From the NCBI GenBank assembly GCA_001825675.1, contig MHYA01000065.1, positions 1 to 36,830 of the forward strand: a stretch of DNA of 36,830 nt, written 5' to 3'. The DNA comes from Planctomycetes bacterium GWF2_42_9 (GTDB taxonomy: Bacteria > Planctomycetota > Phycisphaerae > Sedimentisphaerales > UBA12454). Each line of letters begins with the position of its first letter. Position 1 is the first letter of the stretch. A program made the position numbers and the translations under genes. The notes under the pieces are model-generated. The model saw only the letters and a program-made list of their open reading frames with translations, searched no databases and had not been told where the DNA came from. Below are positions 440 to 19,595 of the stretch, in pieces.

Positions 440-3340
440 ATGTCAAATAGGCCAATAATTTATGTAATTTCTGGAACTCATTGGGATCGTGAGTGGCGTT
501 TTACTGCCGAGCAGTCTTTGTTGCGTCTTGCAGAACTGGTTGATGTGTTATTGAATGTTCTTGAGAACAATAACGCATATCCATGTTTTTTGTTGGATGG
601 CGGTACTGTCATAATGGAGGACTATCTTGCGATTCGCCCGGAAAATGAACAGCGATTAAAAGCGTTATTTAAGGCGAAACGAATCCAAACGGTGATGTGG
701 TACACACTGCCGGAGATGTCCACGGTTGCCCCGGAAGCACTGATACGAAATCTTCTGATTGGCAAAAAGATGGCTGATCAGTTTGGCGGCGCCATTAAGA
801 CAGGTTATACGGCCACATCGTACGGACAGATATCTCAACTGGCCCAGATTTACTCCGGATTTGGAGTTAATACCGTAATGTCCTATCGGGGCACGAATAA
901 ATACCAAGTTCCTCCGATCTGTAAACTGGAAGGTCCCGATGGGTCAAGAGTATATCATATTCGTTGTTTTGATGAAGTTACACGTACTAACTGGTTCTTC
1001 TACCCGCACTACATGCTCGTGTTGGATAAATTGGCAAGAGATTTAGGCACGAAGTGGAATCCTGAAGAATGGCCGATTCATATGGCCGATCAAGGCCTCT
1101 ATGAGACAGCGATTCAGTTGAAAAATGAAAATATGGATTTCAACACGGACCCTGAGAAAATCAAAAAGGCAGTACGAATGCTTGTTAATCAGGCTAAGCC
1201 TCAATGTATCGGCGATAATTTGTTGGCACTGGATATGGAGGATAACGCGGTTCCTTATGTCAAGTTGCCGGAGATGATTAAGAAGATTAATGAAACTCTG
1301 GACGATTATCTGATTAAGCAATCCTCGTTGGATGAATATGTTGAAAGCTGCCTTAACAGTATTGATGATTCAAAATTACATACGCTTAAGGGTGAAATGC
1401 GGTTTACGCTGATCGAGGCGGGCTTTAACGGACTTTTGGGAGCGACACATTCATCACGGATTGACCTGAAACTGATGAACGATCTTGCCCAGCGGGAGTT
1501 GATTAATATCGCCGAGCCATTGTCTGCAATGAGTTCTGTTTTCGGCGGCAGCTACGAGACAACACTCCTTGACAGAGCATGGCTGTATCTCCTTAAAAAT
1601 CAGGCTCACGACAGTATTTGCGGGGCGGCTATTTCAGAGGCGCATGACGATAATCCAGGCCGATTTAGATCGGTTATCTCATTGGCCAAAGAATGTTCCC
1701 GCAAGGCTTGTGAAGAAATATGGAGTCAAATTGATACTGCTGGAATATTTGAACAGGGCGACTTGACGCTGACATTCTTCAATACGTTACCGATCCGGAA
1801 AAGAGGCGTAGAATTAGTTGTAATTGATGCTCCTAAGCCAAATTTTGGTGAATATAAGATTGAACCTTGCACCGGGGCAGGCCCGATTGTCGAAGGATTT
1901 AATCCTGATGAGATGGTGACATTCCAGTATTTTGATATTTTTGATGAAAGCGGCAATAAGATTCCATTTAAAATTCTGGAGAGGGAAAATATCGATTTGG
2001 AGGTAGAGCGAAAGCTGGATTCAAATGCTGCGGTTTACGATATTTTACGCAATCGGATCTTACTGGAAGTTGATGTCCCGCCGATGGGATACAAAACCTA
2101 TGCGGTCAGACCTCGTAAACGGCATTATGTGACAGTCCCAAAGCCCCATGGGTCACGGCCATTGATCGCTTCAAATAATAGGATTCTTGAAAACGAATAC
2201 CTGAAGATCAGTATAGATTCGAACGGTACAGTTGATGTTTTAGACAAAAACTCTGGCAGACAGCTTCATGGTCTTCATTATTTCTGTGATGACGCCAGCA
2301 CGGGCAATGCCCACAAACATAAAGGTACGCTGCGTAATTTTACGGTAACCAGTTTGGGTGAAAAGGCCTCCCTGACTCTGATTGAGAATAATACGCTAAG
2401 GGCTTCTTGGAAGATTGACTTGGAAATGTCAATACCAGACTGTGCGGAACTCAGCTCCAGAAACAGATCTCATACAAAGACAACACTGCCTATCTCAACG
2501 ACTGTTACATTAAAAAAGGGGAGTAAACTGGTGGAAGTGAAGACGGCCATCAGCAATCAAGCCAGAGATCATCGGCTCAGAGTGATGTTCCCAACCCATA
2601 TTGATACGGATTACGCATATGCGGATGCGGCGTTTGATGTGATCAAACGCTCTGTCCTATGGGAACAGGTCGGCGATAATGTGGAAGAGTATCACCCGTT
2701 TAAGCCGATGCAGCGGTTTGTAACGGTCAGTGATGACAAAGAAGGGTTTTCGTTTATCAGCAAGGGTCTTGGTGAATATGAAGTGATTGACGACCCCCAG
2801 CGAACGCTTGCGATTACGCTGCTTCGGACAAGCCGGGCTTACATGCGTGCCAATCGTGGTCTGATGACGCCAGAGGAGTACTGCAGGAATTTGGGTCAGC
2901 ATTGCTTGGGTACCATTGAATATGAATATGCCATCTGTTTGCATAAGGGCAATTGGGATCAGGGAGGGATTCATCTGGCCGCGGACTCCTTTCGATTGCC
3001 GATGCGAGCGATTCAGGGTGTTTCCAAGAAAGGTCTGTTACCTTTGACACAATCGTTGTTTATTCTGGAACCGGCGGAGGATATTCAAGTATCGGCCTTT
3101 TATAAAAGCAGTCTGGCCGGTGGTTATATCCTGAGGCTTTGGAATACAAAAAACAAAGATGTCAATGCGAAGATTCAGTTTAATATAAACATAACCTCTG
3201 CCCAGTTAGTCTCGATGGATGAACAAACCATACAGGAAACCTTAAAGGTTAATAACAGTGTGATTGAATTAAAAATTACACATTCCAAAATCGTAACCCT
3301 ATTAGTAAAAACGCGAGATAAGGATTTATGCAATGTCTGA
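440..3340 (+). CDS. GH38 alpha-mannosidase-like protein 1, nucleophile Asp missing
   Basis: A protein of 966 residues with full GH38 architecture (N-terminal catalytic, middle and C-terminal beta domains), close in length to bacterial mannosylglycerate/alpha-mannosidases such as E. coli MngB. The zinc-binding motif HWDREW is at residues 14-19 (H14, D16), the acid/base Asp is probably D268 (MEDNAVP), and the distal zinc His is H390 in AHDSICG. The family's nucleophile segment, normally LPDSFG, reads TATSYG (residues 124-129), with Thr126 where the Asp should be. There is no signal peptide, so it is probably cytoplasmic. I chose ATG 440 over GTG 422 because AAGGGA at 428-433 gives good ribosome-binding spacing. 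The stop overlaps the next gene by 8 bases. Family assignment is secure; hydrolytic activity is uncertain. Confidence 0.9.
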   Translation: MSNRPIIYVISGTHWDREWRFTAEQSLLRLAELVDVLLNVLENNNAYPCFLLDGGTVIMEDYLAIRPENEQRLKALFKAKRIQTVMWYTLPEMSTVAPEALIRNLLIGKKMADQFGGAIKTGYTATSYGQISQLAQIYSGFGVNTVMSYRGTNKYQVPPICKLEGPDGSRVYHIRCFDEVTRTNWFFYPHYMLVLDKLARDLGTKWNPEEWPIHMADQGLYETAIQLKNENMDFNTDPEKIKKAVRMLVNQAKPQCIGDNLLALDMEDNAVPYVKLPEMIKKINETLDDYLIKQSSLDEYVESCLNSIDDSKLHTLKGEMRFTLIEAGFNGLLGATHSSRIDLKLMNDLAQRELINIAEPLSAMSSVFGGSYETTLLDRAWLYLLKNQAHDSICGAAISEAHDDNPGRFRSVISLAKECSRKACEEIWSQIDTAGIFEQGDLTLTFFNTLPIRKRGVELVVIDAPKPNFGEYKIEPCTGAGPIVEGFNPDEMVTFQYFDIFDESGNKIPFKILERENIDLEVERKLDSNAAVYDILRNRILLEVDVPPMGYKTYAVRPRKRHYVTVPKPHGSRPLIASNNRILENEYLKISIDSNGTVDVLDKNSGRQLHGLHYFCDDASTGNAHKHKGTLRNFTVTSLGEKASLTLIENNTLRASWKIDLEMSIPDCAELSSRNRSHTKTTLPISTTVTLKKGSKLVEVKTAISNQARDHRLRVMFPTHIDTDYAYADAAFDVIKRSVLWEQVGDNVEEYHPFKPMQRFVTVSDDKEGFSFISKGLGEYEVIDDPQRTLAITLLRTSRAYMRANRGLMTPEEYCRNLGQHCLGTIEYEYAICLHKGNWDQGGIHLAADSFRLPMRAIQGVSKKGLLPLTQSLFILEPAEDIQVSAFYKSSLAGGYILRLWNTKNKDVNAKIQFNINITSAQLVSMDEQTIQETLKVNNSVIELKITHSKIVTLLVKTRDKDLCNV

Positions 3341-6158
3341 CAAATCAGAATTAACCGGGTATATTGTCAATCATACTCACTGGGATCGCGAATGGCGTTA
3401 TTCAATGTGGCAGACGCGGTTTATGCTTGTCGAGGTAATGGACGAATTGATTGAGAATCTTGAGACCGGCAAATACAAGAGCTTTTTAATGGATGGCCAA
3501 GTATCGCCGATTATGGACTATCTTGAGATTCGTCCGGAAAAAAAAGAGCAACTTCAAAAGCTGATTTCTTCCGGTAAAATTGAAATCGGTCCATGGTATA
3601 CGCTGCCGGATGAGTTTCCGATTGATGGAGAGGCGATGGTACGCAACCTGTTATGGGGTGATCGTCTGGCTAAAGAACTTGGCGGGGGCCTCAAAATTGG
3701 TTATACCTCTTTTGGCTGGGGACAGACCGCGCAATTGCCCCAACTCTATAAAGAGTTTGGAATGGACGTGGCCTTTATCGGCAAGAGGGTCAACAACGAA
3801 CGAGCCCCGCAGAGTGAGTTCTTATGGCGCGGGCCGGATGGTTCTGAACTTCTGGCAAGCCGATTTGGAGATTGTGGGCGGCAGAACTTTTATTTTCATA
3901 TCCATCTGACATCGTTGTTTGGGATCGATCATTTCAGCCCAAGCTGGTGTTACCATTGGGATCAGGATGGGATTATTTATCACCGTTCGGATAAGGATTT
4001 CTACGAACAGGACATGAGTCGGCTTGATGCGCCTGAAAAATGGCATCCTGAAATGATAACCCCTGAACGTATTGAAAAGGTCTGGGCGACGACGAATGAA
4101 AGTGTGATTGACGAGCATCGTATCATGATGAATGGCTGTGATTATGCAGGCAGCCAAAAACTTCTTCCCGAAATGATCGAGAAACTCAAAGGGATTGACA
4201 AAAATCGATCAAGAGTGTGGAAACAGGCGAGCCTGTCAGAATTTGTCAAAGTAATGCGGGAAAAAATCGATCTTGGGACAATAGCTTCAGTCGAAGGTGA
4301 ACTAAGAGATGGTCCTGCTGCTTATATGACAGGAAACGCGTTAATGACGCGAAATTATTTGAAATTCCTCAATAAGAAAGCTCAAAACCATCTTATTCGT
4401 TTTGCGGAGCCGCTCAGTGTGATGGCCTCGATGCGAGGGGCGGAATTCCCTGAAAAGATGATAGAATTGGCGTGGAAAAATCTATTGGATTCTCATCCGC
4501 ACGACTCCATTAACGGAGTAACTCAGGATGTTACAGCGGATGATGTGAAAGTCAGACTGAAACAATCGATTGAACTAAGCGAAGCAATTGGTGACAATGC
4601 GTTAAGGTATCTCAGCAAAAATATTGAAATGAATCATTTCGATAAAAATGATGTTGTGTTAGCTGTTTTCAACCCGCTGCCATATGAACGTGAGGAGATG
4701 GTTGAAACATGGATTAATGTTCCTGTTGAGTACAGTCATAATGAAATTCTTGTGCCTATCAGCGAAGGAATTCAAATTTTTGACAGCAAGGATAATCCGG
4801 TGAATACCCAATGGGTATCAGTTGAAGATCATGTTGCCAGTGTTCAGGAAGTACATACAAGGACGTTTCCATTTTATAACAAACGACATCGTGTGATTTT
4901 TGATGCGGGGATAATCCCTGCCGGAGGTTATAAGCTATTTCGTTTAGGGCGTAAAGATGAGAGCAGGAAAGATGCTCAGTATGCTGATCTCTGGTCAAGA
5001 ACCGGCGATATTCTCAAGTCGCCTGATATTATGGAAAATGAATATCTGATTGTAAAATTTAACTCCAACGGCACCTTTGACCTAGCTGATAAAGAGCACA
5101 ATCACACGTTTTATAACCTTAATTACTATGAAGATGCGGCTGAACACGGGGATTACTGGACTAATAAAAGAGCAATGGAGGTTCAAACCTATAGCTCTCT
5201 ATGCTGTCAAAGTAGGATATGGACACAAGAATCAGGACCTCTTCGTGCCACGATTGTTAGCGAAGTGACTGTACCGCTTCCTGCGGCTTCGACAGTGGAT
5301 TGGCAGAGAAGAGGTGATCAACTTATTGATATGGTTTTACGAACATATGTAACACTTAAGGCCGGGAGCAGACAAGTTGATGTTCAGGTTGAGTTTGAGA
5401 ACCGGCATAAAGATCATACGCTCAGGGTTATGTTGCCGACCGGGCTTGAAAAGGCGGAGTACGCTTATGTAGGTGGCCATTTTAATGTCCAAAAACGTTC
5501 TATTTACCCCCAAGGCCCGCAAAAGGGAAGTTACTGGGTTGATATGGCTCGTTTGCCGCATGATAAGTTTGTTGATGTCAGCGATGGTGATAATGGTTTT
5601 GCTGTTCTCAACGATTGTCTGGTTGAATACGAAGTCAGCAATACACCCCAACGGGTTTTGGCTCTTACTTTACTGCGGGCGGTGAGAAATGCTCTTTGTA
5701 CAGAATTGCGTAGTTGGACCCAGTTCAATAATCAGGATGGCGGTCAGTGCTTGGGGAAACATACTGTCCATTATGCGCTAAGACCTCACAAAGGCGACTG
5801 GAGTCAAGCCGATATTCCTCTTCATGCGGATTTATTTAATTCCGCGGTTTATCCGGTTCAGACGAGGCGGCATAAAGGTTTCTTGCAGTCGCATCAAACC
5901 TCATTCATTCAGATTAAAGACTCGGCAATACGTTTTTCAGCATTAAAGCAGTGTCATGATCGCGATAATTATATTCTTCGTTTATACAATCCAACGAATA
6001 TGGCACGGGAAACAGAAATTGAATTTAGCAGTAAACTCGCGAATATATGGCTTTGTAATCTGAATGAAGATAGATTGTCCGAAATCAAGTCTGTAAGCAA
6101 CACATTAAAAATTGTGTTTGAGCCTAAAAAGATTAGAACAATTGAATTTCAGGTTTAA
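3333..6158 (+). CDS. GH38 alpha-mannosidase-like protein 2, nucleophile Asp missing
   Basis: A protein of 941 residues, paralogous to the preceding gene and translationally coupled to it (its ATG lies inside the end of the upstream gene). HTHWDREW is at residues 14-21 (zinc ligands H16, D18), the acid/base candidate is D270 in NGCDYAGS, and H390 lies in HPHDSINGV. The nucleophile segment reads TSFGWGQTAQLP from residue 125, and Phe127 occupies the position that is Asp in LPDSFG of characterised members. The C-terminal beta domains contain the HTLRVMLPT block typical of GH38 C-terminal regions. No signal peptide is seen. The two proteins could form a heteromer or act on two linkages of one glycan. 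Family is certain; reaction is not. Confidence 0.9.
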   Translation: MSDKSELTGYIVNHTHWDREWRYSMWQTRFMLVEVMDELIENLETGKYKSFLMDGQVSPIMDYLEIRPEKKEQLQKLISSGKIEIGPWYTLPDEFPIDGEAMVRNLLWGDRLAKELGGGLKIGYTSFGWGQTAQLPQLYKEFGMDVAFIGKRVNNERAPQSEFLWRGPDGSELLASRFGDCGRQNFYFHIHLTSLFGIDHFSPSWCYHWDQDGIIYHRSDKDFYEQDMSRLDAPEKWHPEMITPERIEKVWATTNESVIDEHRIMMNGCDYAGSQKLLPEMIEKLKGIDKNRSRVWKQASLSEFVKVMREKIDLGTIASVEGELRDGPAAYMTGNALMTRNYLKFLNKKAQNHLIRFAEPLSVMASMRGAEFPEKMIELAWKNLLDSHPHDSINGVTQDVTADDVKVRLKQSIELSEAIGDNALRYLSKNIEMNHFDKNDVVLAVFNPLPYEREEMVETWINVPVEYSHNEILVPISEGIQIFDSKDNPVNTQWVSVEDHVASVQEVHTRTFPFYNKRHRVIFDAGIIPAGGYKLFRLGRKDESRKDAQYADLWSRTGDILKSPDIMENEYLIVKFNSNGTFDLADKEHNHTFYNLNYYEDAAEHGDYWTNKRAMEVQTYSSLCCQSRIWTQESGPLRATIVSEVTVPLPAASTVDWQRRGDQLIDMVLRTYVTLKAGSRQVDVQVEFENRHKDHTLRVMLPTGLEKAEYAYVGGHFNVQKRSIYPQGPQKGSYWVDMARLPHDKFVDVSDGDNGFAVLNDCLVEYEVSNTPQRVLALTLLRAVRNALCTELRSWTQFNNQDGGQCLGKHTVHYALRPHKGDWSQADIPLHADLFNSAVYPVQTRRHKGFLQSHQTSFIQIKDSAIRFSALKQCHDRDNYILRLYNPTNMARETEIEFSSKLANIWLCNLNEDRLSEIKSVSNTLKIVFEPKKIRTIEFQV

Positions 6159-6271: not shown

Positions 6272-8335
6272 ATGACAATGCATCCGCTAGATATCGCGAT
6301 TATAGTTTTCTACATGCTTCTTCTTGTTGTGATTGCGACCTATTTGAAAAAGCGTGCGACAAACAGCATGGATGATTATTTTCTTGGCGGCAGACAAATG
6401 CCCTGGTGGACATTGGGTGTAACAGGTATGGCTGCTTGGCTGGATATGACAGGAACGATGATTATTACCGCGTTCCTGTTTATGCTGGGCCCGAGAGGTC
6501 TATTTGTCGAATTTAGAGGTGGCGCGGGTCTGGTTTTGATATTCTGTATGCTCTGGCTTGGCAAATGGCACCGCAGAAGCGGCTGTATGACAGGTGCGGA
6601 ATGGATGATATTTCGTTTTGGCAAAGATAATGGTGCCCATGCCGCACGACTGCTATCGGCCGTTTCCATGGTGATTTTTACAGCTGGCATTCTTGCCTAT
6701 TCCTTTATCGGAGCAGGCTTGTTTCTGTCTACATTCCTTCCATTTCAGCCGTGGGTCTGTACCTTAATCCTTGTGATTATCACAACATTATATACGGTGC
6801 AATCCGGATTTTATGGGGTTGTTGTCACAGACATTTTTCAGATGCTGCTTGTAGTGATTGGAGTTGTGTGCGTCACCGTGATGGCGGTTATAAAGGTTCG
6901 TGATCATGGTGGTATTGCGGATGTTGTATTCGAGGTAACCGGCAACAGCCAATGGTTCAGTTCTGTTCCCAATTTTCAAACTACTATGCCGAAAGGCTAC
7001 GAACAGTATAACGCTTTATTTTCGATCACCATGTTTTATCTGCTTAAAACGATTGTTCAGGGGCTTGGTGTCGGCGGAGAACCGAAATACTTTGGTGCGC
7101 GTAACGATCGGGAATGCGGGTTATTAAGTTTTCTGCAAGGCTGGCTTATGTCGATCCGATGGGTTCTCATGATCGCTTTTGTTATTCTCGGTCTTTTTCT
7201 TGTCAAAGACTGGTTTCCGGACCAGGCGGTATTATCCCAGGCCTCGACTTTAATCAAATCGCAGGTTCGGGATGTGAAAGAAACCGAATGGGCTGGTGTA
7301 ATTTCTAATATTGTCAATCACAAACAAGCGTACCCTGTGGAGTTGATTTCAGGCCTCGAATCCATGCTGGGACCCGACTGGTCGTCTAAACTCTACCTAA
7401 TTAATTTTGAAGGTGAGATCAATGCTGAACGAATTATGCCTTCAGTATTGGCGTCGTGTATTCCGATTGGGATTCGTGGACTATTGCTGGTTGCTTTGCT
7501 GGCTGCGGCAATGTCTACGATTAATGCCTTTTTGAATATGGCAACAGGTTTCTTTACACGCGATATCTATCAGGCGTACCTGCGTCCCAAGGCTCATAAC
7601 AAGGAATTAATCTTGGCCAGCTATGGCTTTGGTGTGGTGCTCGTTAGCTTGTCTTTCATCATGGCTTATACCAGTAAGAATATCAATGACATCTGGGGCT
7701 GGATTACAATGAGTTTGGGAGGTGGAATGATTGTTCCATTTGCGCTGCGTCTGTATTGGTGGCGTTTTAACGGGTATGGATTTGCAATAGGTACCTTCTT
7801 TGGCATGATAGCTTCTCTTGTTCAGAGACTTGTCTGGCCGGCTTGGCCTGAAACGCATCAGTTTATTTTTACGATTGCAATCGGGCTTATTGCAAGTGTT
7901 ATAGGCACTTATTTGACAAAGCCGACGGATCCTGAAGTGTTAAAGAATTATTATCACAAGATCAGGCCTTTTGGCTTGTGGGCAAAGCTTAAAGAAACCT
8001 TATCTGTACAGGAACGGGCCAGAACTGAATCAGAAAATAGAAATGACTTGATTTCCTTGCCATTTGCTTTCTTCTGGCAGGTAACGATCCTGTTGTTGCC
8101 ACTACAACTCTTGATAGGCTCCTACAAAGATTTTGTGATCACATTTGTAATATTAGTATTATCTCTTGTTGGCTTATATGTTTTCTGGTACCAAAAACTT
8201 GACTCTCTTGACAGGGAAGCTGAAAGGATTACAGATGATGCCGATATTGGAAAACATTGCGGCGATGAAGCCGAAGGCGATGAAGAATTTGACTCTGCCG
8301 GAAATAAGGGGCCACGTCGATCTGGCCAGAGCTAA
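6272..8335 (+). CDS. Sodium:solute symporter (SSS family) 1
   Basis: A polytopic membrane protein of 687 residues beginning with a hydrophobic helix and the SSS-type pattern DYFLGGRQMPWWTLG after the first segment. Repeated membrane helices continue to about residue 640, with a large hydrophilic loop near residues 315-395. It is expected to import a sugar or other organic solute with Na+. AGGAG at about 6263-6267 precedes the ATG. The gene follows the mannosidase pair by 113 bases, so it probably imports their product or substrate. After the last helix (ending near LYVFWYQKL) the C-terminal tail is highly charged and Gly-rich. That tail is encoded in bases that in another frame form a better-looking small ORF, so it is probably not conserved. 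Confidence 0.92.
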   Translation: MTMHPLDIAIIVFYMLLLVVIATYLKKRATNSMDDYFLGGRQMPWWTLGVTGMAAWLDMTGTMIITAFLFMLGPRGLFVEFRGGAGLVLIFCMLWLGKWHRRSGCMTGAEWMIFRFGKDNGAHAARLLSAVSMVIFTAGILAYSFIGAGLFLSTFLPFQPWVCTLILVIITTLYTVQSGFYGVVVTDIFQMLLVVIGVVCVTVMAVIKVRDHGGIADVVFEVTGNSQWFSSVPNFQTTMPKGYEQYNALFSITMFYLLKTIVQGLGVGGEPKYFGARNDRECGLLSFLQGWLMSIRWVLMIAFVILGLFLVKDWFPDQAVLSQASTLIKSQVRDVKETEWAGVISNIVNHKQAYPVELISGLESMLGPDWSSKLYLINFEGEINAERIMPSVLASCIPIGIRGLLLVALLAAAMSTINAFLNMATGFFTRDIYQAYLRPKAHNKELILASYGFGVVLVSLSFIMAYTSKNINDIWGWITMSLGGGMIVPFALRLYWWRFNGYGFAIGTFFGMIASLVQRLVWPAWPETHQFIFTIAIGLIASVIGTYLTKPTDPEVLKNYYHKIRPFGLWAKLKETLSVQERARTESENRNDLISLPFAFFWQVTILLLPLQLLIGSYKDFVITFVILVLSLVGLYVFWYQKLDSLDREAERITDDADIGKHCGDEAEGDEEFDSAGNKGPRRSGQS

Positions 8336-8423
8336 ATCCCTCGGATCATTTTTGTTGATGAGTATGAATGACTATATTGAACTGCTTTCGCGGACGAAGC
8401 CGGAAAATATAATTAGTGCATAA
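8235..8423 (+). CDS. Small 62-residue protein overlapping the symporter end
   Basis: An ORF in the +1 frame that overlaps the last 101 bases of the symporter and ends 16 bases before the next start codon. An AAAGGA at 8223-8228 sits six bases before tandem ATG codons at 8235 and 8238. The product starts MMPILENIAAMKPKAMKN and includes a hydrophobic stretch (GSFLLMSMNDYIELL). Codon choice in this frame looks more natural than in the overlapping symporter tail. I do not recognise a family. A small partner of the transporter is a guess from position only. It could also be a chance ORF. Confidence 0.5.
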   Translation: MMPILENIAAMKPKAMKNLTLPEIRGHVDLARAKSLGSFLLMSMNDYIELLSRTKPENIISA

Positions 8424-8439
8424 GATAAAAAGGATTTTT

Positions 8440-9684
8440 ATGAATCGAAGTTATGATGTAATGGTAGCTGGTCATTTATGTCTCGATATAATTCCTTTAT
8501 TTCCGGATACTGGAGCAAGACAGATACAAGAGATATTGTCTCCCGGCAAACTTGTTAATGTTGGAAACGCCAAAATCAGTACCGGCGGCCCAGTGTCCAA
8601 TACTGGGATCAACATGAAAACGCTGGGTAACAAAGTTTGTTTTTGTGCCTGTGTAGGCGATGATGTTTTAGGCCAACTGACAGTAAATCTCCTTAAAGCC
8701 AGTGGTAATGCCGAAGGGATTGGGGCTGTTAAAGGTGCGGCCAGTTCCTACACGGTGGTGCTTGCCCCACGAGGTATTGACCGGATATTTCTTCACAATC
8801 CAGGCACCAATAATTATTTCGGAGCGGAAAATCTCGATCTCAAGCTGATACAGCAGTGTCGACATTTTCATTTGGGATATCCCCCTTTAATGGCTCGGAT
8901 GTTCGCCGACGAAGGTAAAGAACTGGCCAAAATTTTCAAGATTGCCAAAGAGGCTGGCGCCACTACCTCTTCTGATATGACTCTGCCGGATCCAGCTTCC
9001 CCTTCCGGAAAGGCGCCATGGCGTAAAATATTGGAAAACATTCTTCCCTATATTGACATCTATGTTCCATCTATTGAGGAAACATTCTATATGCTCTATC
9101 CGGAAGAATTTCTGAAAATGAAGGCTGAGCACCATAATGCTGAATTGATTGATTATATAAACCCAAAGCAATATTCTAAACTTGCTGACGAGATTATTTC
9201 GATGGGGGCGAAGATGACGACTCTCAAGAGTGGCCATAGAGGGTTCTATATCAAAACCGCATCGAAAAGCGTCTTTAAAAATTTAGGCGCAGCCCAACCG
9301 GGTGATTTTGATAATTGGGCCAATCGGGAACTCTGGGCGCCTGCCTATCAGGTCGAAAAGTTTGGCTCTGCTACCGGTTCCGGCGATTCTTCCATTGCCG
9401 GACTCCTGACAGGATATCTGAACGGAAATACCATTGAACAGTCTCTGAAATACGCGACCTGCCTTGGATACCAGAATGTTTGTGTTCTGGATGCAGTTAG
9501 CGGAATCAAGGATCTGAAAACAACAAAGGAAATGATAAGATCAGATATGCCGATGATAGATACCCATCTTGATGGCAATGGCTGGAAATATAATCAAGAT
9601 TTAAAGATATTTTCTGGTATTAAAGATAAACTGAGTTTAGCTACAAATGAACTGAAAAAATCATTTACGATTGTCGAGCGTTAA
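8440..9684 (+). CDS. PfkB-family carbohydrate kinase 1
   Basis: A ribokinase/PfkB-fold sugar kinase of 414 residues. The N-terminal part has the GG-rich substrate-lid region (STGGPVSNTGINMKTLG) followed by CVGDDVLGQ. The C-terminal signature reads SATGSGDSSIAGLLTGYL, where the GSGD Asp is the expected catalytic base and the neighbouring Gly residues form the anion hole. It should phosphorylate a sugar or nucleoside-like hydroxyl with ATP in the cytoplasm. ATG 8440 is preferred over GTG 8416 because AAAAGGA lies just before it. At about 414 residues it is longer than the usual 300-340, with an extra segment around residues 210-300. Substrate not predictable. Confidence 0.9.
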   Translation: MNRSYDVMVAGHLCLDIIPLFPDTGARQIQEILSPGKLVNVGNAKISTGGPVSNTGINMKTLGNKVCFCACVGDDVLGQLTVNLLKASGNAEGIGAVKGAASSYTVVLAPRGIDRIFLHNPGTNNYFGAENLDLKLIQQCRHFHLGYPPLMARMFADEGKELAKIFKIAKEAGATTSSDMTLPDPASPSGKAPWRKILENILPYIDIYVPSIEETFYMLYPEEFLKMKAEHHNAELIDYINPKQYSKLADEIISMGAKMTTLKSGHRGFYIKTASKSVFKNLGAAQPGDFDNWANRELWAPAYQVEKFGSATGSGDSSIAGLLTGYLNGNTIEQSLKYATCLGYQNVCVLDAVSGIKDLKTTKEMIRSDMPMIDTHLDGNGWKYNQDLKIFSGIKDKLSLATNELKKSFTIVER

Positions 9685-9704: not shown

Positions 9705-10985
9705 GTGTCAATACGTTTATTTTTAGTGCCGTTTTTTTTGTATACCGGATATTGCACGGCAGGATTTCACGAAAATGCCACGTTTAAAACAATTAATAAT
9801 TTTGCAAAAAGTATCCGAGAATTTGGTGTGCTGCCGACCAATACTCCTGCGATGAACAGAGACAATCTGCAAAAAGCGATTAATTGGGCCCATCCGCGGG
9901 GGGCGGCGATTTATGTGGAACCGACTGACGTTCCTTATCCGATGGAGGGTGGGATTATTCTCAGAGCAAACGTCTCCTTAGTTGGAGTACATGGGCCGGT
10001 CGGGCGAGGAACCCGGCACCCTGATAAAGCTCAACCGGTAGGCAGCGTTTTTGCAATTGAAGATGAAGAAAAAGTTTTCATGACAGTGGAAAATGCGACG
10101 CAGATTCGAGGGATTCAGTTCTGGTATCCCAAACAGACTCTCGATGATCCCGCAAAGATCATCCGCTATCCGGCAACCATTCAGGCATCAAAAGCCAAAG
10201 GTGCTCAGGGAGTTATGCTGTCGTGTCTGACTTTTTACGGCGAGTTTATAGCCATGGATTTTAATGCCAAGGCTGAGGCGATTGTTGAACAGATTCTCTT
10301 CGAGCACTGTTATGGCTATCCGCTCAGTGGTGAATTTATCCGTATTGATTATTGCTACGACATCCCGCGCATACTTCACTGTCATGTGAATCCGGCCAAC
10401 CGGCGATTCATAGACGGCGGTTACAGCCGGGCGGTCATTGACTCCGTGGTTGCACGGAAAACATTCACCTATCGAATAGACCATACGGACAATGCTCAAT
10501 GTATCGATCTTTTTACGTTTGGGGCGTATGGCGGGATTTACTTGGGGCCGGCGACTTACGGGCAATTAACCAATTTCAATTTTGATTGTGTTACCGTAGG
10601 AATACATAAACTTGGTGACAATTCACGTAACCGCAATTGGCAGGTCAGCCAGGGATCGATCATCGCCAATACAGGGCAGCATTTGAATGAGATTCACTCG
10701 CTGATTGTTGAAGGTCAGGGTCACATGTCACTGACCAATGTAGAAGCGTTTTCTGGGCCTAATAACGCACTGACAACACTGGATAAATCACAAGATTTTC
10801 TTCTTGTTACGGGCAATGAAAAACTCACGATAACAATGGTCAGTTGTCGAATGCGAGATTACGTTGCCGATAACCCAATTACCCGTTCAAATGCGAACGC
10901 AGTCATTCAGGCAATAGGTTGCTTTGACAAGCATGAAAACATATTTGAATCCGGCGATAGGTTTTATCACGATAACGGTTATTGA
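9705..10985 (+). CDS. Secreted right-handed beta-helix protein (pectate-lyase-like)
   Basis: A protein of 426 residues starting at GTG 9705 after AAGGA about eight bases upstream. The first 19 residues form a signal peptide (hydrophobic LFLVPFFLYTGYCTA). Next comes a pectate-lyase-superfamily-like entry: a region pairing residues in a helix (DNLQKAINWA) with GAAIYVEPTDVPYPMEGG, then repeated short beta-strand turns with N/G-rich ladders (for example GIQFWYPK, LTNFNFDCVTVGI, HMSLTNVEAFSG). This is typical of polysaccharide lyases and beta-helix glycoside hydrolases. It probably acts outside the cytoplasm on a glycan. I cannot assign a PL or GH family or catalytic residues. It ends the first block; a 494-base gap follows. 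Confidence 0.7.
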   Translation: MSIRLFLVPFFLYTGYCTAGFHENATFKTINNFAKSIREFGVLPTNTPAMNRDNLQKAINWAHPRGAAIYVEPTDVPYPMEGGIILRANVSLVGVHGPVGRGTRHPDKAQPVGSVFAIEDEEKVFMTVENATQIRGIQFWYPKQTLDDPAKIIRYPATIQASKAKGAQGVMLSCLTFYGEFIAMDFNAKAEAIVEQILFEHCYGYPLSGEFIRIDYCYDIPRILHCHVNPANRRFIDGGYSRAVIDSVVARKTFTYRIDHTDNAQCIDLFTFGAYGGIYLGPATYGQLTNFNFDCVTVGIHKLGDNSRNRNWQVSQGSIIANTGQHLNEIHSLIVEGQGHMSLTNVEAFSGPNNALTTLDKSQDFLLVTGNEKLTITMVSCRMRDYVADNPITRSNANAVIQAIGCFDKHENIFESGDRFYHDNGY

Positions 10986-11479: not shown

Positions 11480-12295
11480 ATGTCGGGAAAAAATATCAGA
11501 CTCGCGAAATTATTCAGAAGTAAGAAAAATCTAGTCATTTCCGCCTTAGACCATGTGGTTGAATATGGCGTTCAACCGGGGATTGAAGATGCAAGAAAGG
11601 CGATCGAGAATTGTATAACCACTGACGCTATATTGCTTCCGAGATTTATGCTTAAGAGGAACTGCGATTTATTTGGCAAGGTCAATGCTCCAACGCCGAT
11701 AGTCCGTATCAACTGGTCTTCTTCATTCTATTATCCGTTAAATTACCGAGAAGGATTTACAACGATTTGTACGAATGTTGAAGAAGCTGTGGAAGCAGGT
11801 GCTGAGGCCATCATCTGCTCTCTATTTTTGGAAGAACAAGATAACCAGCAAATGGAAGTTAACAACGTGGCGATCTTCTCGGAAGTGGTCTGTCAAAAGG
11901 AAAAGCTGGGCATTCCACTGATTGGGGAATGTTATGTTGTCGAGCATAAAGAAAAAACAAAGCAACAGGTGCACGATAAGGTAAAACGAATTTCAAGAAT
12001 AATGGCCGAATTAGGCGCTGATTTGATTAAAACGTTCTATACCGGTACTCAATTTCACGAGGTGGTTGAAAATACCCCTGTTCCAGTATTTACAATTGGC
12101 GCTGAGAAATTGAATACTAACCTTGCTGTGTTGGAAAAAGCTTATAACTCTGTTGATCAGGGTGCAAGGGGCATTATTTTTGGACGAAACATCTTTATGG
12201 CCAAAGATCCTAAAGTTTTAATAACAGCACTAAATGATATTATAAATAAAGGACTGACACCGAAAAAAACAGCGGCAAAATACGGTTTAAAATAA
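11480..12295 (+). CDS. Class I (DeoC/LacD/DhnA-type) aldolase
   Basis: A TIM-barrel aldolase-like protein of 271 residues. The N-terminal SALDHVVEYG matches the conserved Asp region of DhnA-type fructose-bisphosphate and LacD/YihT-type aldolases. The Schiff-base lysine is probably K184 in GADLIKTFYTG. The C-terminal GARGIIFGRNIFMAKDP is the usual phosphate-binding Gly/Arg loop. It should reversibly cleave a ketose phosphate into two three-carbon units (or a related split) in the cytoplasm. ATG 11480 is preceded by GTGGAGA. It opens a block with an FGGY kinase 102 bases downstream, which would make a phosphorylated substrate. Exact substrate unknown. Confidence 0.85.
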   Translation: MSGKNIRLAKLFRSKKNLVISALDHVVEYGVQPGIEDARKAIENCITTDAILLPRFMLKRNCDLFGKVNAPTPIVRINWSSSFYYPLNYREGFTTICTNVEEAVEAGAEAIICSLFLEEQDNQQMEVNNVAIFSEVVCQKEKLGIPLIGECYVVEHKEKTKQQVHDKVKRISRIMAELGADLIKTFYTGTQFHEVVENTPVPVFTIGAEKLNTNLAVLEKAYNSVDQGARGIIFGRNIFMAKDPKVLITALNDIINKGLTPKKTAAKYGLK

Positions 12296-12397
12296 AAAGT
12301 GATCACGTTGTCCAAGATAATGGTATTTGAAAAATGAACAAATAAGGTATCGCCGGCTTTGTGAATTAATCGATTAAAACAGAAGGTCTTGTAACAG

Positions 12398-13768
12398 ATG
12401 AAATTATTTTGTGGAATTGACTTTGGAACAAGCAATACGAAAGCGGTCTTACTTGATGACCAGATGTTGTTACTTGACAGAATCACGTTGCCAGTTAAAC
12501 AAAGCTTTGACATAGATGCAGAGTTAATTTGGTTGTCGCATTTTAAAAATGTTATTCAATACTTTAAATCCAAAGGTTTATTGGATTATAATAAAGTCTG
12601 TTGTAGTATAACTTCCCAGGGAGGGACGTTCGTTTTTCTGGATAAAAAATTCAGGCCGATTACGGAACCCATTTCTTGGCTCGAAAACGCCAGCATGAAT
12701 ACCGTAAAATCTCTTGCAGATTTTTTCACTCCGGAAGAATATTATAGAATGACTGGCTGGGAACCTCACCCCTGGTTGGCTGTTTTCAAGATAAAGGAGC
12801 GTTTAGAAAAAAATAAGCTTTCCGGAAAGCTTAGGTATGTTTCCATGATTCCGGAATATATACATGCTCAATTGACAGGAAGATTCATTACGGATGTTAC
12901 CAATGCCCAAATAACCGGATTATGCGATTTCAGACAGCTTTCTTGGTCTGAGGGGGTGATGAATTGGGCGGGACTAAAAACTGAATTATTGCCTCAAATA
13001 TGTTCTAAGCCGGAAATCATCCTTGAGAAATTAGATATCGAAGGCGTAAAGATTGATATATTTACCAGCTCCCATGATCAATATGCGTTAATGCATGCAG
13101 CGGATATTCAGGTGGATAGAGATGTCCTGTTGGGCACCGGTACGGCTTGGGTTTTAAATGGCAGGGTATCAGAACCATTGTATAAAGATGATTTCAGTAT
13201 TCACCCGGGTCGTGACATCGATGAAGGCTGTTATGGCTTTATTCAGACGTTTGGGCCTGTAGGCAATGATTTCGACAAGCTTTTGACGGAACTTAATATT
13301 GATTACAGTCACTTTTCGGAATTGAGATCGCAGTTTCCCTCTCTGGGGATAGATGTATTTTCAATGCCTTTATGTGACAATGTTGACAACAAGGTTTCGA
13401 TAGCTGTCAAAAATTACATGGATGTAACTGCCTCTAAAGTGTTATATGCGATTGAAAGACTTGGATTAGATTATCAATTACAAAAACTTATAATGACCGG
13501 GGGGGCTACGGCCAGTTCCTACTGGCCGCAAGCTATAGCCAACCTGACTAGGATGGTTATTGAAACGGTCGATTTTCCCGAGATGACGGCTCTTGGTGCT
13601 GCCAAATTTGCGCGAAGTACTCTATTAAAAGTGCGTGATACTGGAGGAATTCATTGGCCAAAGCAGGCTAACGTTAGATACATTGAGCCCAAAGATACGG
13701 AAAAATACAGGGAGTGGTATACACGCAAACAAAAACCTATTTTGATTAAAGAACTATCCCGCAGTTGA
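12398..13768 (+). CDS. FGGY-family carbohydrate kinase
   Basis: A protein of 456 residues with the ASKHA fold. The phosphate-1 motif FCGIDFGTSNTKAVLLDD is at the N-terminus, the middle part has TGTAWVLNG (phosphate-2 type loop), and MTGGATASSYWPQAIANLT near the C-terminus is the adenosine motif. It transfers phosphate from ATP to a sugar or polyol (family members act on xylulose, gluconate, rhamnulose, glycerol and others). It is shorter than typical members (about 480-520). It is flanked by the class I aldolase and the amidohydrolase and is probably co-transcribed with both. The intergenic distance to the next ORF is very short. Substrate not assignable. Confidence 0.9.
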   Translation: MKLFCGIDFGTSNTKAVLLDDQMLLLDRITLPVKQSFDIDAELIWLSHFKNVIQYFKSKGLLDYNKVCCSITSQGGTFVFLDKKFRPITEPISWLENASMNTVKSLADFFTPEEYYRMTGWEPHPWLAVFKIKERLEKNKLSGKLRYVSMIPEYIHAQLTGRFITDVTNAQITGLCDFRQLSWSEGVMNWAGLKTELLPQICSKPEIILEKLDIEGVKIDIFTSSHDQYALMHAADIQVDRDVLLGTGTAWVLNGRVSEPLYKDDFSIHPGRDIDEGCYGFIQTFGPVGNDFDKLLTELNIDYSHFSELRSQFPSLGIDVFSMPLCDNVDNKVSIAVKNYMDVTASKVLYAIERLGLDYQLQKLIMTGGATASSYWPQAIANLTRMVIETVDFPEMTALGAAKFARSTLLKVRDTGGIHWPKQANVRYIEPKDTEKYREWYTRKQKPILIKELSRS

Positions 13769-13780
13769 TTGAGCAAAAAA

Positions 13781-14821
13781 ATGCGCGACCTATTTGAAAT
13801 GAAAAAACTAGATATTGATTTTTATGAAAAGAATCTAAAAGATTTTTTGCCGGATAGTATTGTTGATATCCATACACATGTCTGGCTTGACAGCTTAGTA
13901 AAACATAAAGATGACGAACTTAGCAAAATCGCGGCTTGGCCGTCAAAGGTAGCCCATGAGAATTCAATCGAACACCTCAAACGAAGTTACGAACTATTGT
14001 TTCCAGGTAAAAGTGTGACCCCGGTAATTTTTTCAAATATTCTTGATAAGGAAAATTTAGACTCGCTAAATAATTATTGTGCGACATGTGCTACGAAGAA
14101 TAATTATCCAGCTCTTGCAGTTGTTCGTCCTGACTGGGATGCCGACAAACTTGAACATATTATTCAAGAGGGGAATTTCTATGGTGCAAAGGTTTATCTT
14201 ACTTTTTCTGCTTCTTATATCCCCGTAAATGAAATACGTATCTTTGATTTTCTGCCTCATCATCAGCTTGAGATTTTAAACCGGCATGGCTGGGTGGCGA
14301 TTTTACATATTTCAAGACCTCAACGGCTCAAAGACTCGGTTAATTTGGCTCAACTTCTCGAAATTGAACGACGTTATCCAAATATCAAGTTGGTTGTCGC
14401 TCATGTGGGGAGAGCGTATTGCCTGGAAGATGTGGGTGATGCTTTCGAGGTTTTGAAAGAAACCCAAAGGATGCTCTTTGATATTTCCGCAAATACGAAT
14501 GCGGATGTTTTTAAAATACTTATTGATACAGTAGGTCCTAAGCGCATTCTATTTGGCAGTGATATGCCAATTACAACGATGCGGATGCGAAGGATATGTG
14601 AAAACGGAAATTATGTAAATCTTGTTCCCAAAGGTGCTTATGGCGATGTGTCTGATGATCCCCACATGAGGGAAGTTGAAGATACTGAAGCAGAAAAGCT
14701 TACATTCTTTATATACGAACAAATCGATGCTTTTAGAAAAGCTTCGATAAAATGTCGTTTGTCCAATAATGATATCGAGGCTGTGTTTAATGGGAACTCA
14801 CGAAAAATTCTTGGTCTTTAA
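13781..14821 (+). CDS. Amidohydrolase-2 family metal-dependent hydrolase/lyase
   Basis: A TIM-barrel protein of about 347 residues. Metal-ligand motif VDIHTHVW lies near residue 30, further conserved positions are in VAILHISRP and KLVVAHVGRAY (candidate metal His residues), and RILFGSDMPI near the C-terminal side carries the characteristic Asp. NGNSRKILGL closes the protein in the usual family manner. Members hydrolyse lactones or decarboxylate/hydrolyse ring substrates; in a sugar locus a lactonase-like role is plausible but unproven. The frame also opens at TTG 13769 directly after the kinase stop. I prefer ATG 13781; neither has a strong ribosome site, so the gene is probably translated by coupling. 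Confidence 0.8.
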   Translation: MRDLFEMKKLDIDFYEKNLKDFLPDSIVDIHTHVWLDSLVKHKDDELSKIAAWPSKVAHENSIEHLKRSYELLFPGKSVTPVIFSNILDKENLDSLNNYCATCATKNNYPALAVVRPDWDADKLEHIIQEGNFYGAKVYLTFSASYIPVNEIRIFDFLPHHQLEILNRHGWVAILHISRPQRLKDSVNLAQLLEIERRYPNIKLVVAHVGRAYCLEDVGDAFEVLKETQRMLFDISANTNADVFKILIDTVGPKRILFGSDMPITTMRMRRICENGNYVNLVPKGAYGDVSDDPHMREVEDTEAEKLTFFIYEQIDAFRKASIKCRLSNNDIEAVFNGNSRKILGL

Positions 14822-15123
14822 TGAATATATTAAGAATATAAGTGTATGGCATACTGTTATTTTCTTTAGCTATTTTTGGGAGTCGTGGTTTTTGCTGTGG
14901 TTGTAGTCGCATGAGCAAACAAAATCGTCATCGGATTATTTTCTGGCTTCCTAAAAGTTAGCTTGATATGCGGTTGGAGCTTCTTTCACGAGTTTGAATT
15001 ATTTTGCAGCCAACCGAACTGAAAATGGTTTTCATGTAGGCTGCCGTTGATACTTAGAGCGAACTGATTTTGTAATAAATTATATTCGGAAACTATGTAA
15101 AACCTGAGTAACAGAGAGTATTT
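14822..15123 (+). promoter_or_regulatory. 302-base intergenic region with nested inverted repeats
   Basis: No ORF of note. CGGTTGG at 14971-14977 pairs with CCAACCG at 15010-15016. Overlapping it, GCAGCC at 15006-15011 pairs with GGCTGC at 15039-15044 around a tight hairpin GAAAA-TGG-TTTTC at 15021-15033. The two arms share the CC at 15010-15011, so the structures are mutually exclusive, which would fit an alternative-fold leader or an attenuator. They lie 80-150 bases before the symporter start. No known riboswitch is recognised. Confidence 0.4.
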
Positions 15124-16722
15124 ATGGGAATTAGTCTTAGCAGGATAGATATTTTTATCTTTGTCGCCTATTTTGCTTTAGTGATAGCGATAGGCATTGC
15201 GGCCTCACGAAATGCTGCACGCAGCAAACGCGATTATTTTCTGGCTGGCGATAAACTGCCATGGTGGATGATAGGCGGGAGCATTGTGGCCGCGAATATA
15301 AGCAGTCATCATTTCATCGGCGTAATGGGAACGGCTTATACCAAGGGATTTGTTGCAATGACGATCGAATGGGGTGCGATACTGCTGGGATTTAATGTAC
15401 TATTATGGATATTTCTGCCGTACTATTTGCGGAACGGCTTTTATACCATGCCGGAATTTCTTCAAAAGCGTTACGGTGCGGCGGCTAGGACAACTTTTGC
15501 GGCACTTGTCCTAGTCACATATATTTTCGTTGAAATCAGCGCCGTTCTGTATCTCGGTGCAATCGCATTACATTCATTGCTTGGCATAGTGATGTGGAAG
15601 AGCATTGTTGCGCTGGCGATATTTACAGGCATATATACCATCCTCGGAGGGCTGCGAGCAGTTGTATGGACAGAAATGCTTCAGCTTGCTGTACTGCTCA
15701 CGGGCGGCATAGCATTATCTATCATGTCAATAAAGGCGGCGGGCGGCTGGTCGGCCGTAATGGAAACAAGCCGCACATGGCATATGATCCTGCCCGCAAC
15801 GGATTCTGATTTTCCGTGGACGATGTACCTCGGCGGCATAACCTGTATCAGTGTCTTTTACTGCGCAGCCAACCAGTTCATAGTTCAGCGAACGCTTGCA
15901 GCAAAGGATGAATGGCACGCCAGAATGGGCGTAGTCTTTACCGATTATCTCAAATTTTTAATGCCCCTGATCATCATCATACCAGGACTCCTCGCGGTAA
16001 AGATGTTTCCCAATCTCGACAAGCCGGACATGGTTTTTCCGACGCTTGTAAAATATCTGCTTCCACCAGGGCTGGTGGGGCTTGTTATGGCGGGTTTAAT
16101 AGCAGCCGTGATGTCGCATATATCAGGGGCGATCAATTCATGCACAACTATTTTTACCTGCGATTTTTATCTGCCGTACATAAATAAGAAAGCCTCCGAA
16201 AGACAGGCCGTTGTCGTAGGTAAGATAACCGGAGCGGTTATTGTGGTGCTTGGAGTTCTCTGGGCATTTGTTTTGCTGCCTCATTCGGGAAAGCCGATTT
16301 TTCTTTACCTGCTAAATGCGTATGGTTATGTTACCCCCGGCATAGCGACAATGTTCCTTTTGGGAATTTTCTGGAAAAGAACTACGCACGCCGGAGCGCT
16401 TGCAGCCGGCGCATTGACGATCCCGCTTTCAATATTGATCGAGAAAACCGCTCCAATGCTGCCGGAGGAAATCGCTGCTTTTGTTACACCATTTTTCAAC
16501 AGGACCGGAATCGTTTTCTGGTTATGTATGCTCACAGGCGTTATAGTTAGCCTGTTTTCAAAACCGCTCAACGAGGAACAGTTAAAAGGACTTATCTGGA
16601 CGCGGTCAAGTCTGTCGCTTCCGCCCGAACTCAAGGCCAGGGCAGGGTTGCTTAAAAGTCCCGTGCTGTGGTGGGCAATTATTACAGCGGCAGTTCTATT
16701 CATGTATGTAAAATATTATTAA
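15124..16722 (+). CDS. Sodium:solute symporter (SSS family) 2
   Basis: A polytopic protein of 532 residues with the SSS signature near the N-terminus (SKRDYFLAGDKLPWWMIGGS, followed by ANISSHHFIG). About 13-14 membrane helices run to the C-terminus, ending in a final helix WWAIITAAVLFMYV. This is the standard length and topology for sugar-type SSS transporters of the SGLT group. It should co-transport Na+ and a sugar or polyol. GAGAG before ATG 15124 is the ribosome site. It follows an inverted-repeat leader and precedes the dehydrogenase block. It is less GC-poor than several neighbours, which may indicate a different history. Confidence 0.93.
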   Translation: MGISLSRIDIFIFVAYFALVIAIGIAASRNAARSKRDYFLAGDKLPWWMIGGSIVAANISSHHFIGVMGTAYTKGFVAMTIEWGAILLGFNVLLWIFLPYYLRNGFYTMPEFLQKRYGAAARTTFAALVLVTYIFVEISAVLYLGAIALHSLLGIVMWKSIVALAIFTGIYTILGGLRAVVWTEMLQLAVLLTGGIALSIMSIKAAGGWSAVMETSRTWHMILPATDSDFPWTMYLGGITCISVFYCAANQFIVQRTLAAKDEWHARMGVVFTDYLKFLMPLIIIIPGLLAVKMFPNLDKPDMVFPTLVKYLLPPGLVGLVMAGLIAAVMSHISGAINSCTTIFTCDFYLPYINKKASERQAVVVGKITGAVIVVLGVLWAFVLLPHSGKPIFLYLLNAYGYVTPGIATMFLLGIFWKRTTHAGALAAGALTIPLSILIEKTAPMLPEEIAAFVTPFFNRTGIVFWLCMLTGVIVSLFSKPLNEEQLKGLIWTRSSLSLPPELKARAGLLKSPVLWWAIITAAVLFMYVKYY

Positions 16723-16949
16723 TTCTCGTGTTTGAATAATCCTTATGGCAATCAATATATTAGGTATTGATCGGGTGGTGGATGTCGTTGGTGCCTTCTA
16801 CAGAGAGTATGCTCTGGCCTGAATAAATCATGGAGGTATTACTGCTCCGAGTTTCACTGCCATCGAGCTTGATGATTTTATTCCTTTGGTTGGCGGATTG
16901 TTTATTAATTTCGTTCAGAATACAGGTTTTTAGGGAGTGCAATTACAAA

Positions 16950-17984
16950 ATGAAAGCTTTAAGATTTTACGGACAAGAAGATATTCGACTAGACGAGGTT
17001 GCTCGTCCTCAAGCAGAGTCGGGTGGGTTGTTGGTCAAAGTCGAGGTATGCGCTATATGCGGGACGGACTTGAAAGCATATTTCAAAGGTAATCCTCGAA
17101 TTAAGCCACCCCAGACAATTGGTCACGAGTTTGTTGGAAAAATTGTTGAAGTTGGCAAAGATGTTAATGGTTATAATGTTGGCGAAAGAGTAACAATGGC
17201 GACGAGTATTTCCTGTGGTCATTGTGCAACTTGCCGAGCTGGCTATACCAATCGATGTGAGGGCCTAAAGCCTATAAGCTATGATTATCCCGGCGCGTTT
17301 GCCGAGTATATTGCTATTCCGCCGGCGGGTGTTTCAGGCGGAAACACGATAAAAGTACCGGATACTCTTAGTGATATGGCAGCATTAGCAGAGCCGATAA
17401 GTTGTGCGATAAATGCACAGATTTTGGCAGGCGTAAAGATGGGCGATACCGTTGTAGTGGTCGGCTGTGGACCGCTCGGGGCGATTCATACTCAGGTTGC
17501 AAGGGCAAACGGAGCAACAAAGATAATCGTCACGCAATCCTCCGCTGAACGCTTAAAACTTGCAGCCAAGCTCGGCATTGATGAAATCATTGACACATCC
17601 AAAACCGACCCCGTCGAAGAGGTCATGCGATTAACAGGTGGGATTGGTGCTGATGTTGTAATTGTAACGGCTTCTGCTGCAGCCGCGCAGGAGCAGGCGA
17701 TTCGTATGGCTCGTAAGGGAGGTATGATAAATCTCTTTGCCTCTCTTCCCAGCGGATGTTCTGAATTGAAAATTGACTCTCGCTTACTCCATTATCGAGA
17801 GCTTTTTATAAGCGGAGCATCTGACAGTACGCCTTATCATGTTGAACTGGCCGTCAAATTGTTAGAAAGTGGGTTTATTTCCGATAAAATTATTACTCAC
17901 CGTCTGCCTATTGACAAGTTCATTGATGGCTTAATGCTCATGAAAGAAAGCAAAAGTCTTAAAGTGGTGCTTAAGCCGGAGTAG
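16950..17984 (+). CDS. Zn-dependent medium-chain alcohol/polyol dehydrogenase
   Basis: An MDR-family dehydrogenase of 344 residues. The catalytic zinc motif is CAICGTDLKAY with GHEFVGKIVEVG, and the structural zinc cluster is CGHCATCRAGYTNRC. The Rossmann NAD-binding segment is VVVVGCGPLGAIH. This resembles sorbitol/threonine/L-iditol-type dehydrogenases, so it probably oxidises a sugar alcohol or reduces a keto sugar using NAD(P). ATG 16950 with MKALRFYG is the natural family start; upstream codons in the same frame back to 16830 look non-coding. TAGGGAG lies about 12 bases upstream. The SDR gene follows after six bases, so they are probably one operon. Confidence 0.93.
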   Translation: MKALRFYGQEDIRLDEVARPQAESGGLLVKVEVCAICGTDLKAYFKGNPRIKPPQTIGHEFVGKIVEVGKDVNGYNVGERVTMATSISCGHCATCRAGYTNRCEGLKPISYDYPGAFAEYIAIPPAGVSGGNTIKVPDTLSDMAALAEPISCAINAQILAGVKMGDTVVVVGCGPLGAIHTQVARANGATKIIVTQSSAERLKLAAKLGIDEIIDTSKTDPVEEVMRLTGGIGADVVIVTASAAAAQEQAIRMARKGGMINLFASLPSGCSELKIDSRLLHYRELFISGASDSTPYHVELAVKLLESGFISDKIITHRLPIDKFIDGLMLMKESKSLKVVLKPE

Positions 17985-17990
17985 ATAAAG

Positions 17991-18758: not shown

Positions 18759-18879
18759 TTTATTCGTTTCTTAAGATTAAAATTGTATGCACGACGCGAA
18801 TGGTACTTTGGCTTCAGGCTGTATTATATTTAATCTAAGAAGTTATAGCGTTGGTTCAGATACTCAACTTTTTTCCGTT

Positions 18880-18892
18880 CCGGCGATGCCGG
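18880..18892. promoter_or_regulatory. Short GC hairpin upstream of the transaldolase start
   Basis: CCGGC and GCCGG form a perfect five-base stem around GAT. It ends four bases before the ribosome site AGGAG (18897-18901) of the transaldolase gene. There is no T-run after it, so it is unlikely to be a terminator. It could tune translation or stabilise a processed mRNA end. Confidence 0.35.
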
Positions 18893-18909
18893 GGTTAGGA
18901 GCAAATAGT

Positions 18910-19560: not shown

Positions 19561-19595
19561 TCAATTAATAAGTTGAAACTCAAGAAAGGTAATTT

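Follow-up and report, generated by a model that had tools for sequence, protein, structure and literature searches.

Two overlapping genes of the window (the whole 36,830-nucleotide stretch of planctomycete DNA analysed here) encode proteins, P1 and P2, which, judged from their sequences, are intact members of a large and unstudied bacterial clade of GH38-fold proteins with a re-engineered −1 site. The retained fold, the loss of the catalytic nucleophile, the residue changes correlated with this loss, the tree, the gene neighbourhood and the co-occurrence with a HAD-family enzyme have been established by computation. The favoured reading, to which we give a probability of roughly 45%, is that the clade consists of cytoplasmic inverting α-mannoside phosphorylases that would use phosphate as the nucleophile and feed the HAD enzyme and the mannose-6-phosphate isomerase ManA; this is inferred and has not been demonstrated.

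Loss of the GH38 nucleophile

The P1 and P2 genes overlap by 8 bases on the + strand, P1 starting at the ATG at 440 with a GTG at 422 also in frame. In a profile search all four GH38 Pfam domains exceeded the Pfam cut-offs in both proteins, and the nearest solved structures by phmmer were the bacterial enzymes 3lvt/5kbp and 2wyh. An AlphaFold2 model, made for P2 only (pLDDT 91, pTM 0.92), matched 5kbp best in Foldseek (TM 0.84/0.90, E 4e-73), indicating that the GH38 fold is kept. Both proteins belong to the GH38 sequence and fold family; they score far below the cut-off of the mannosylglycerate hydrolase (MngB) equivalog PRK09819 (420 and 388 bits against 1138). The closest relative of P1 in the set is another Thr-type protein, L030 (46%). 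The window's own genome has 13 GH38 matches, four of which lack the nucleophile aspartate (Table 1).

In the Streptococcus pyogenes enzyme SpGH38, D125 was assigned by its authors as the nucleophile, D232 as the acid/base and H13, D15, D125 and H351 as metal ligands (PMC2815779). D125, together with D126 of Escherichia coli MngB, aligns without gaps with T126 of P1 and F127 of P2, both by phmmer against 2wyh, 3lvt and 5kbp and in a 122-row MAFFT alignment. The aspartate of the GYxPD[ST]FG motif, which is nucleophile and zinc ligand at once, is thereby missing from both proteins, the motif reading GYTATSYG in P1 (122-129) and GYTSFGWG in P2 (123-130). An alignment artefact was considered and rejected, the motif being ungapped against many canonical rows as well as by phmmer. 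An earlier note on this DNA had named these same two replacements, which proved exact to the residue, and had been equally correct that the HWD motif (H14/D16 in P1, H16/D18 in P2), the acid/base aspartate and H390 are kept; D391 is kept too. Clade-wide, the other zinc ligands (His-x-Asp and the distal His) are found in 100% of rows, the acid/base aspartate in 97 of 98 and H390 and D391 in 98 of 98, and the equivalents of SpGH38 H13, D15, W18, D232, H351 and D352 are practically invariant. By the defining aspartate, which was tested and is absent, P1 and P2 would appear to fall outside the retaining zinc α-mannosidases; there is no assay of mannosidase activity with retention.

Table 1. Positions of the two GH38-fold genes, their active-site residues, the genome's other nucleophile-less GH38 genes and two downstream neighbours (window coordinates unless a contig is given)
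Feature	Position	Strand	Basis
P1, GH38-fold protein of the nucleophile-less clade, Thr type, 966 aa	440..3340	+	PF01074, PF09261, PF07748, PF17677 above cut-off
P1 R20 (SpGH38 Y19), clade-specific arginine	497..499	+	alignment
P1 T126 at the place of the catalytic nucleophile (SpGH38 D125)	815..817	+	alignments
P1 R182 (SpGH38 S193), clade-invariant arginine	983..985	+	alignment
P1 D268, acid/base kept	1241..1243	+	alignment
P1 H390-D391, zinc ligand and substrate-contact Asp kept	1607..1612	+	alignment
P2, GH38-fold protein of the nucleophile-less clade, Phe type, 941 aa	3333..6158	+	four GH38 Pfam domains above cut-off
P2 R22 (SpGH38 Y19), clade-specific arginine	3396..3398	+	alignment
P2 F127 at the place of the catalytic nucleophile	3711..3713	+	alignments
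P2 R177 (SpGH38 L187), clade-specific arginine	3861..3863	+	alignment
P2 R183 (SpGH38 S193), clade-invariant arginine	3879..3881	+	alignment
P2 D227, conserved acid in a clade-specific loop, candidate alternative catalyst	4011..4013	+	alignment
P2 D270, acid/base kept	4140..4142	+	alignment
P2 H390-D391, zinc ligand and substrate-contact Asp kept	4500..4505	+	alignment
Sodium:solute symporter (SSF), probable importer	6272..8335	+	PF00474; homologues near clade GH38 in 4 loci
PfkB-family sugar kinase	8416..9684	+	PF00294; homologue near clade GH38 in about 11-12 loci
Nucleophile-less GH38 of the same genome (F)	C135:12889-15690		
Nucleophile-less GH38 of the same genome (S)	C39:30052-32853		

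Relatives were sought in one genome per GTDB species with the patterns HWDREWR or [PST]F[GS]WGQ[TIV][AS]Q, which gave 498 stretches, 429 of them encoding a relative. The best 80 of the 429 were kept and the other 349 were left unread; HWDREWR alone does not prove the substitution. Records among these best 80 are named as Planctomycetota, Hydrogenedentota, Verrucomicrobia, Kiritimatiellae, Chlamydiae, Spirochaetes (Treponema) and many Firmicutes, and cultured Ruminiclostridium, Paenibacillus, Faecalicatena and Pontiella are among them. Some genomes carry several nucleophile-less GH38 paralogues. The nucleophile position is occupied by F (92), T (4) or S (2) in 98 different rows of the 122-row alignment, and on a tree computed with the nucleophile columns left out all of the F/T/S rows lie on one side of a single branch (SH-aLRT 92), requiring one change. 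The tree was a quick LG+G4 search on 62 clade and 12 canonical rows remaining after thinning, and some long branches meet among the canonical rows. Such a tree of homologues had been proposed as a check in the earlier note, and its outcome, with the 98 relatives, bears out the suggestion of an uncharacterised GH38 clade. No characterised active member with the same substitution, which would have spoken against this, was found, and none of the PDB entries matched by sequence belongs to the clade. The open-licence literature (subscription journals and CAZy lay outside the search) yielded no description of a nucleophile-less GH38 clade and no relevant paper on an α-mannoside phosphorylase or β-mannose 1-phosphate.

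Correlated residue changes and a HAD partner

Compared with the bacterial GH38 α-mannosidases SpGH38 (2wyh/2wyi), the Enterococcus faecalis enzyme (3lvt/5kbp) and MngB, the clade shares the four-domain fold, the zinc ligands of the HWD motif, the distal His together with the Asp that follows it, the acid/base Asp and the stacking Trp, whereas it differs at the nucleophile itself and at a set of positions around it. R149 and Y192 of SpGH38 are partners of D125 and have been linked to ionising or hydrogen-bonding the nucleophile (PMC2815779). The R149 position is K in 84 of 98 clade rows (R in 12, H in 2). At the Y192 position most of the MngB-like canonical rows have Y, whereas the clade usually has G, A, T or P. 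The phenylalanine two residues after the nucleophile (SpGH38 F127) has become W in 93 of 98 rows, with Y or F in a few, and Y574 has become W in 94 of 98. Arginine is gained at three sites: S193, next to the nucleophile-bonding Y192, is R in 98/98 clade rows against 1/14 canonical rows; L187 is R or K in 97/98 against 5/14; and Y19 is R in 96/98, where 13/14 canonical rows have Y. That these arginines lie near the active site is suggested by their alignment beside known active-site residues and not by any distances.

Phe-type members have in addition a loop that is missing from most canonical enzymes, in which the position of P2 D227 has D in 86 and E in 3 of the 98 clade rows, and H217 is H in 87. 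D227 is absent from the Thr/Ser types, among them P1, the genome's Ser-type paralogue (P4) and L030. Another Asp or Glu filling the nucleophile site had been put forward in the earlier note as one finding that would refute the loss; the alignment contains no compensating acid conserved in the whole clade, D227 being the only new and widely conserved one, and confined to the F types.

The clade has a dedicated partner, a HAD protein of the β-phosphoglucomutase (β-PGM)/sugar-phosphatase type. Neighbour clustering placed this protein of about 330 residues near the GH38-like gene at 41 of 79 clade loci, usually in the same orientation and no more than about 200 bp away. It has an N-terminal extension of about 80 residues and the motifs DLDGT, KPHPWLY and GIEDS, and across phyla is 54-72% identical to the first sequence of its alignment. 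Among 161 genomes of the window's order, 24 have both genes, 7 the GH38 clade only, 3 the HAD only and 127 neither (Fisher p 3e-19, uncorrected for kinship), such that the HAD is present in 24/31 genomes with the clade and in 3/130 without; 17 of 30 HAD genes in the order lie within 500 bp of a clade GH38, and the pattern recurs at the level of the window's genus and of its family. Of 199 genomes drawn from the phylum, 5 contain the clade, and 4 of these gave a strong HAD match (>400 bits), against 0 of the 194 others, among which are 9 with only canonical close relatives. Thr/Ser and Phe types share the HAD, since the gene lies 24 bp from the Thr-type L030 and, at locus L065, a single copy sits between a Ser-type and a Phe-type GH38; P4-type (S/T) proteins also occur in a genome (G013, 84% complete) without it. 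Genomes carry one or few conserved HAD genes against several divergent GH38 paralogues, as would be expected if all paralogues gave one product.

The chemistry of the HAD is less settled. DLDGT is invariant in 33 aligned rows, and the DxD nucleophile/acid and C1 cap expected of β-PGM are present; the best named relatives are the HxpB and β-PGM families, at low score, and by fold Foldseek returned CbbY, AlnB and β-PGM without separating mutase from phosphatase. The cap residue R49 of β-PGM, which holds the second phosphate, is Val in this family, and H20 is also missing, so that the protein may be a phosphatase; its identification as a proven β-phosphoglucomutase is not supported.

Proposed phosphorolysis and competing explanations

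Enzymes working by single displacement are marked by the absence of an enzymatic nucleophile and the retention of the acid. For an inverting phosphorylase this is met at the canonical position, D227 being a possible substitute, and the basic phosphate site that would also be needed may be represented by the new arginine columns. Because the His/Asp/His zinc ligands, the stacking Trp, the acid/base Asp and its neighbouring Asp are kept, zinc probably continues to bind a mannose-like sugar and the leaving group is probably still protonated, and the arginines gained at the nucleophile site suggest an anion as the incoming nucleophile. In the proposed reaction, inorganic phosphate bound by the new basic residues would attack C1 of an imported α-mannoside in the cytoplasm, releasing β-mannose 1-phosphate and a shorter sugar or aglycone; the HAD would convert the former to mannose 6-phosphate and ManA would convert this to fructose 6-phosphate (mannoside + Pi → β-Man1P → Man6P → Fru6P). 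In 62 of 80 members (the best 80 of 429) the open frame extends for at most 35 residues ahead of the HWD motif, a length into which a signal peptide would hardly fit. A class I mannose-6-phosphate isomerase is encoded near 14 of 79 clade loci and the typical operon order is SBP-ABC-ABC-HAD-GH38-PMI; intracellular location, importer, β-PGM-type HAD and ManA together would provide a short path from mannoside to fructose 6-phosphate. There are no biochemical data on phosphate as the nucleophile, the stereochemistry, the product, the substrate, the role of the HAD or phosphate-dependent cleavage, all of which are inferred.

Two known systems offer partial parallels. To our knowledge GH130 is unrelated to the GH38 family, and the likeness proposed is that of a mannoside enzyme whose choice between phosphate and water follows basic versus acidic residues. 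In GH130 mannoside phosphorylases three basic residues hold the phosphate, and members with carboxylates there are hydrolases (PMC4599007). The GH38 clade shows the opposite exchange, with basic residues gained, which was counted in favour of phosphorolysis; GH130, however, acts on β-linkages and gives α-mannose 1-phosphate, whereas an α-linkage and β-mannose 1-phosphate are predicted here. In the E. coli ycjT-ycjU pair, an inverting GH65 α-glycoside phosphorylase gene adjoins one for a β-PGM-type HAD, although that system handles glucose rather than mannose, has a different fold and includes a HAD with an intact β-PGM signature. A 2022 review of phosphorylases makes no mention of GH38 or of an α-mannoside. 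A bolder claim is held with still more reserve: that these proteins form the first family of α-mannoside phosphorylases, in which the fold of a retaining zinc mannosidase turned inverting by loss of the nucleophile and gain of a phosphate site, and that they act together with a new HAD β-phosphomannomutase.

Several observations count against phosphorolysis: the larger side chain of Phe, compared with Asp, could obstruct attack from that side; β-PGM R49 and H20 are missing from the HAD; 7 of 31 clade genomes have no HAD; and the neighbour found in the window is a PfkB kinase, with the HAD gene of this genome on another contig (C5). The gain of three arginines could instead serve to hold an anionic glycoside (phosphate, sulfate or carboxylate), perhaps aiding its cleavage, with the HAD acting as a sugar-phosphate phosphatase on the product. 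The HAD is indeed as near to phosphatases (HxpB, CbbY, AlnB and the MtlD phosphatase domain) as to β-PGM, and putative sulfatases, named by eye, lie near some clade loci; this explanation is nevertheless considered unlikely, as an anionic substrate alone accounts neither for the loss of the nucleophile nor for the mannose-6-phosphate isomerase, and the common neighbour families included no recognisable PTS. We regard as slightly more doubtful the idea that the proteins are still hydrolases using a different carboxylate or a zinc-bound water. The conservation of D227 and H217 makes the former a candidate base or nucleophile in the F types, and the kept zinc ligands, with one coordination site left open, would suit the latter. 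The T/S types, however, share R183 and the acid/base and, in L030 and L065, have the HAD partner too, while lacking D227, and hydrolysis leaves the HAD unexplained.

The earlier note had left the choice between another mechanism and binding without cutting; the former is now favoured by the loss of the nucleophile-supporting residues, the gain of arginines and the HAD partner, and the latter is disfavoured. The nucleophile of GMII and of Bl_Man38A has been mutated to obtain sugar complexes (PDB titles), as would befit a non-catalytic sugar-binding or regulatory protein, yet such a role is improbable for a clade in which the acid/base and the H390/D391 pair are almost without exception retained, several paralogues coexist in some genomes and the operon position, with importers and sugar-phosphate enzymes, points to catalysis. 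Ordinary decay of a GH38 gene, for which only the missing Asp speaks, was rejected, as the earlier note had argued: the frames are open and full-length, the tree has a single origin and the replacement motif is conserved across phyla.

Many bacterial species, including cultured gut and soil Firmicutes, carry 'α-mannosidases' unable to use the textbook GH38 mechanism, and the labels 'mannosylglycerate hydrolase' and 'α-mannosidase' should not be relied on for the clade even if its members are not phosphorylases. The analysis also links a conserved HAD gene, whose function is unknown, to a partner. Should phosphorolysis be correct, the clade would provide an α-mannoside route absent from the 2022 phosphorylase review, might allow α-mannosides to be synthesised from a sugar phosphate, and would document how a retaining hydrolase can turn into an inverting phosphorylase.

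Gene surroundings

Neighbour families were tested on representatives, and the ABC, UroD-like and sulfatase names come from sequences read by eye. The best matches of the window's PfkB kinase are 44-81% identical (L055 81%, L047 62%). Replacement of the HAD by PfkB is not supported, since, in a search of 31 relatives, most genomes containing a close PfkB homologue proved to have the HAD too. About 8 kb from the genome's Ser-type GH38 lies a protein joining the C-terminal part of a PfkB to a HAD domain (L015:266-1525), its start possibly cut by the slice; it was rejected as a member of the conserved PfkB or HAD sets, with no match at E 1e-10. UroD-like proteins occur as 18 copies in 11 of 79 clade loci (for example L015:6626-9774, L160:11509-12582 and L108), the one representative scanned giving no family match, and a GH94 phosphorylase gene directly adjoins the GH38 gene in 3 clade loci, which counts in favour of the phosphorolytic reading. 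Next to a Phe-type paralogue (P3), L014:9267-12886 encodes α-L-rhamnosidase-like and sialidase/BNR-repeat-like proteins, again named by eye.

Further along the window, 11480-25468 is a dense row of sugar-catabolism genes encoding a DeoC/LacD-type aldolase, an FGGY kinase, an amidohydrolase, a second SSF symporter, a Tdh-like dehydrogenase, an SDR, a fructose-6-phosphate aldolase (above the equivalog cut-off), a class II aldolase, a second PfkB and two MFS sugar porters. Proteins of 426 and 337 residues (9705-10985 and 25705-26718) belong to the same gene row and matched nothing in Pfam or NCBIfam at the thresholds applied. A group II intron with its reverse transcriptase/maturase (RF02005, RF00029, TIGR04416) occupies 29592-31537 and is followed by an IS66 transposase at 31926-33206.
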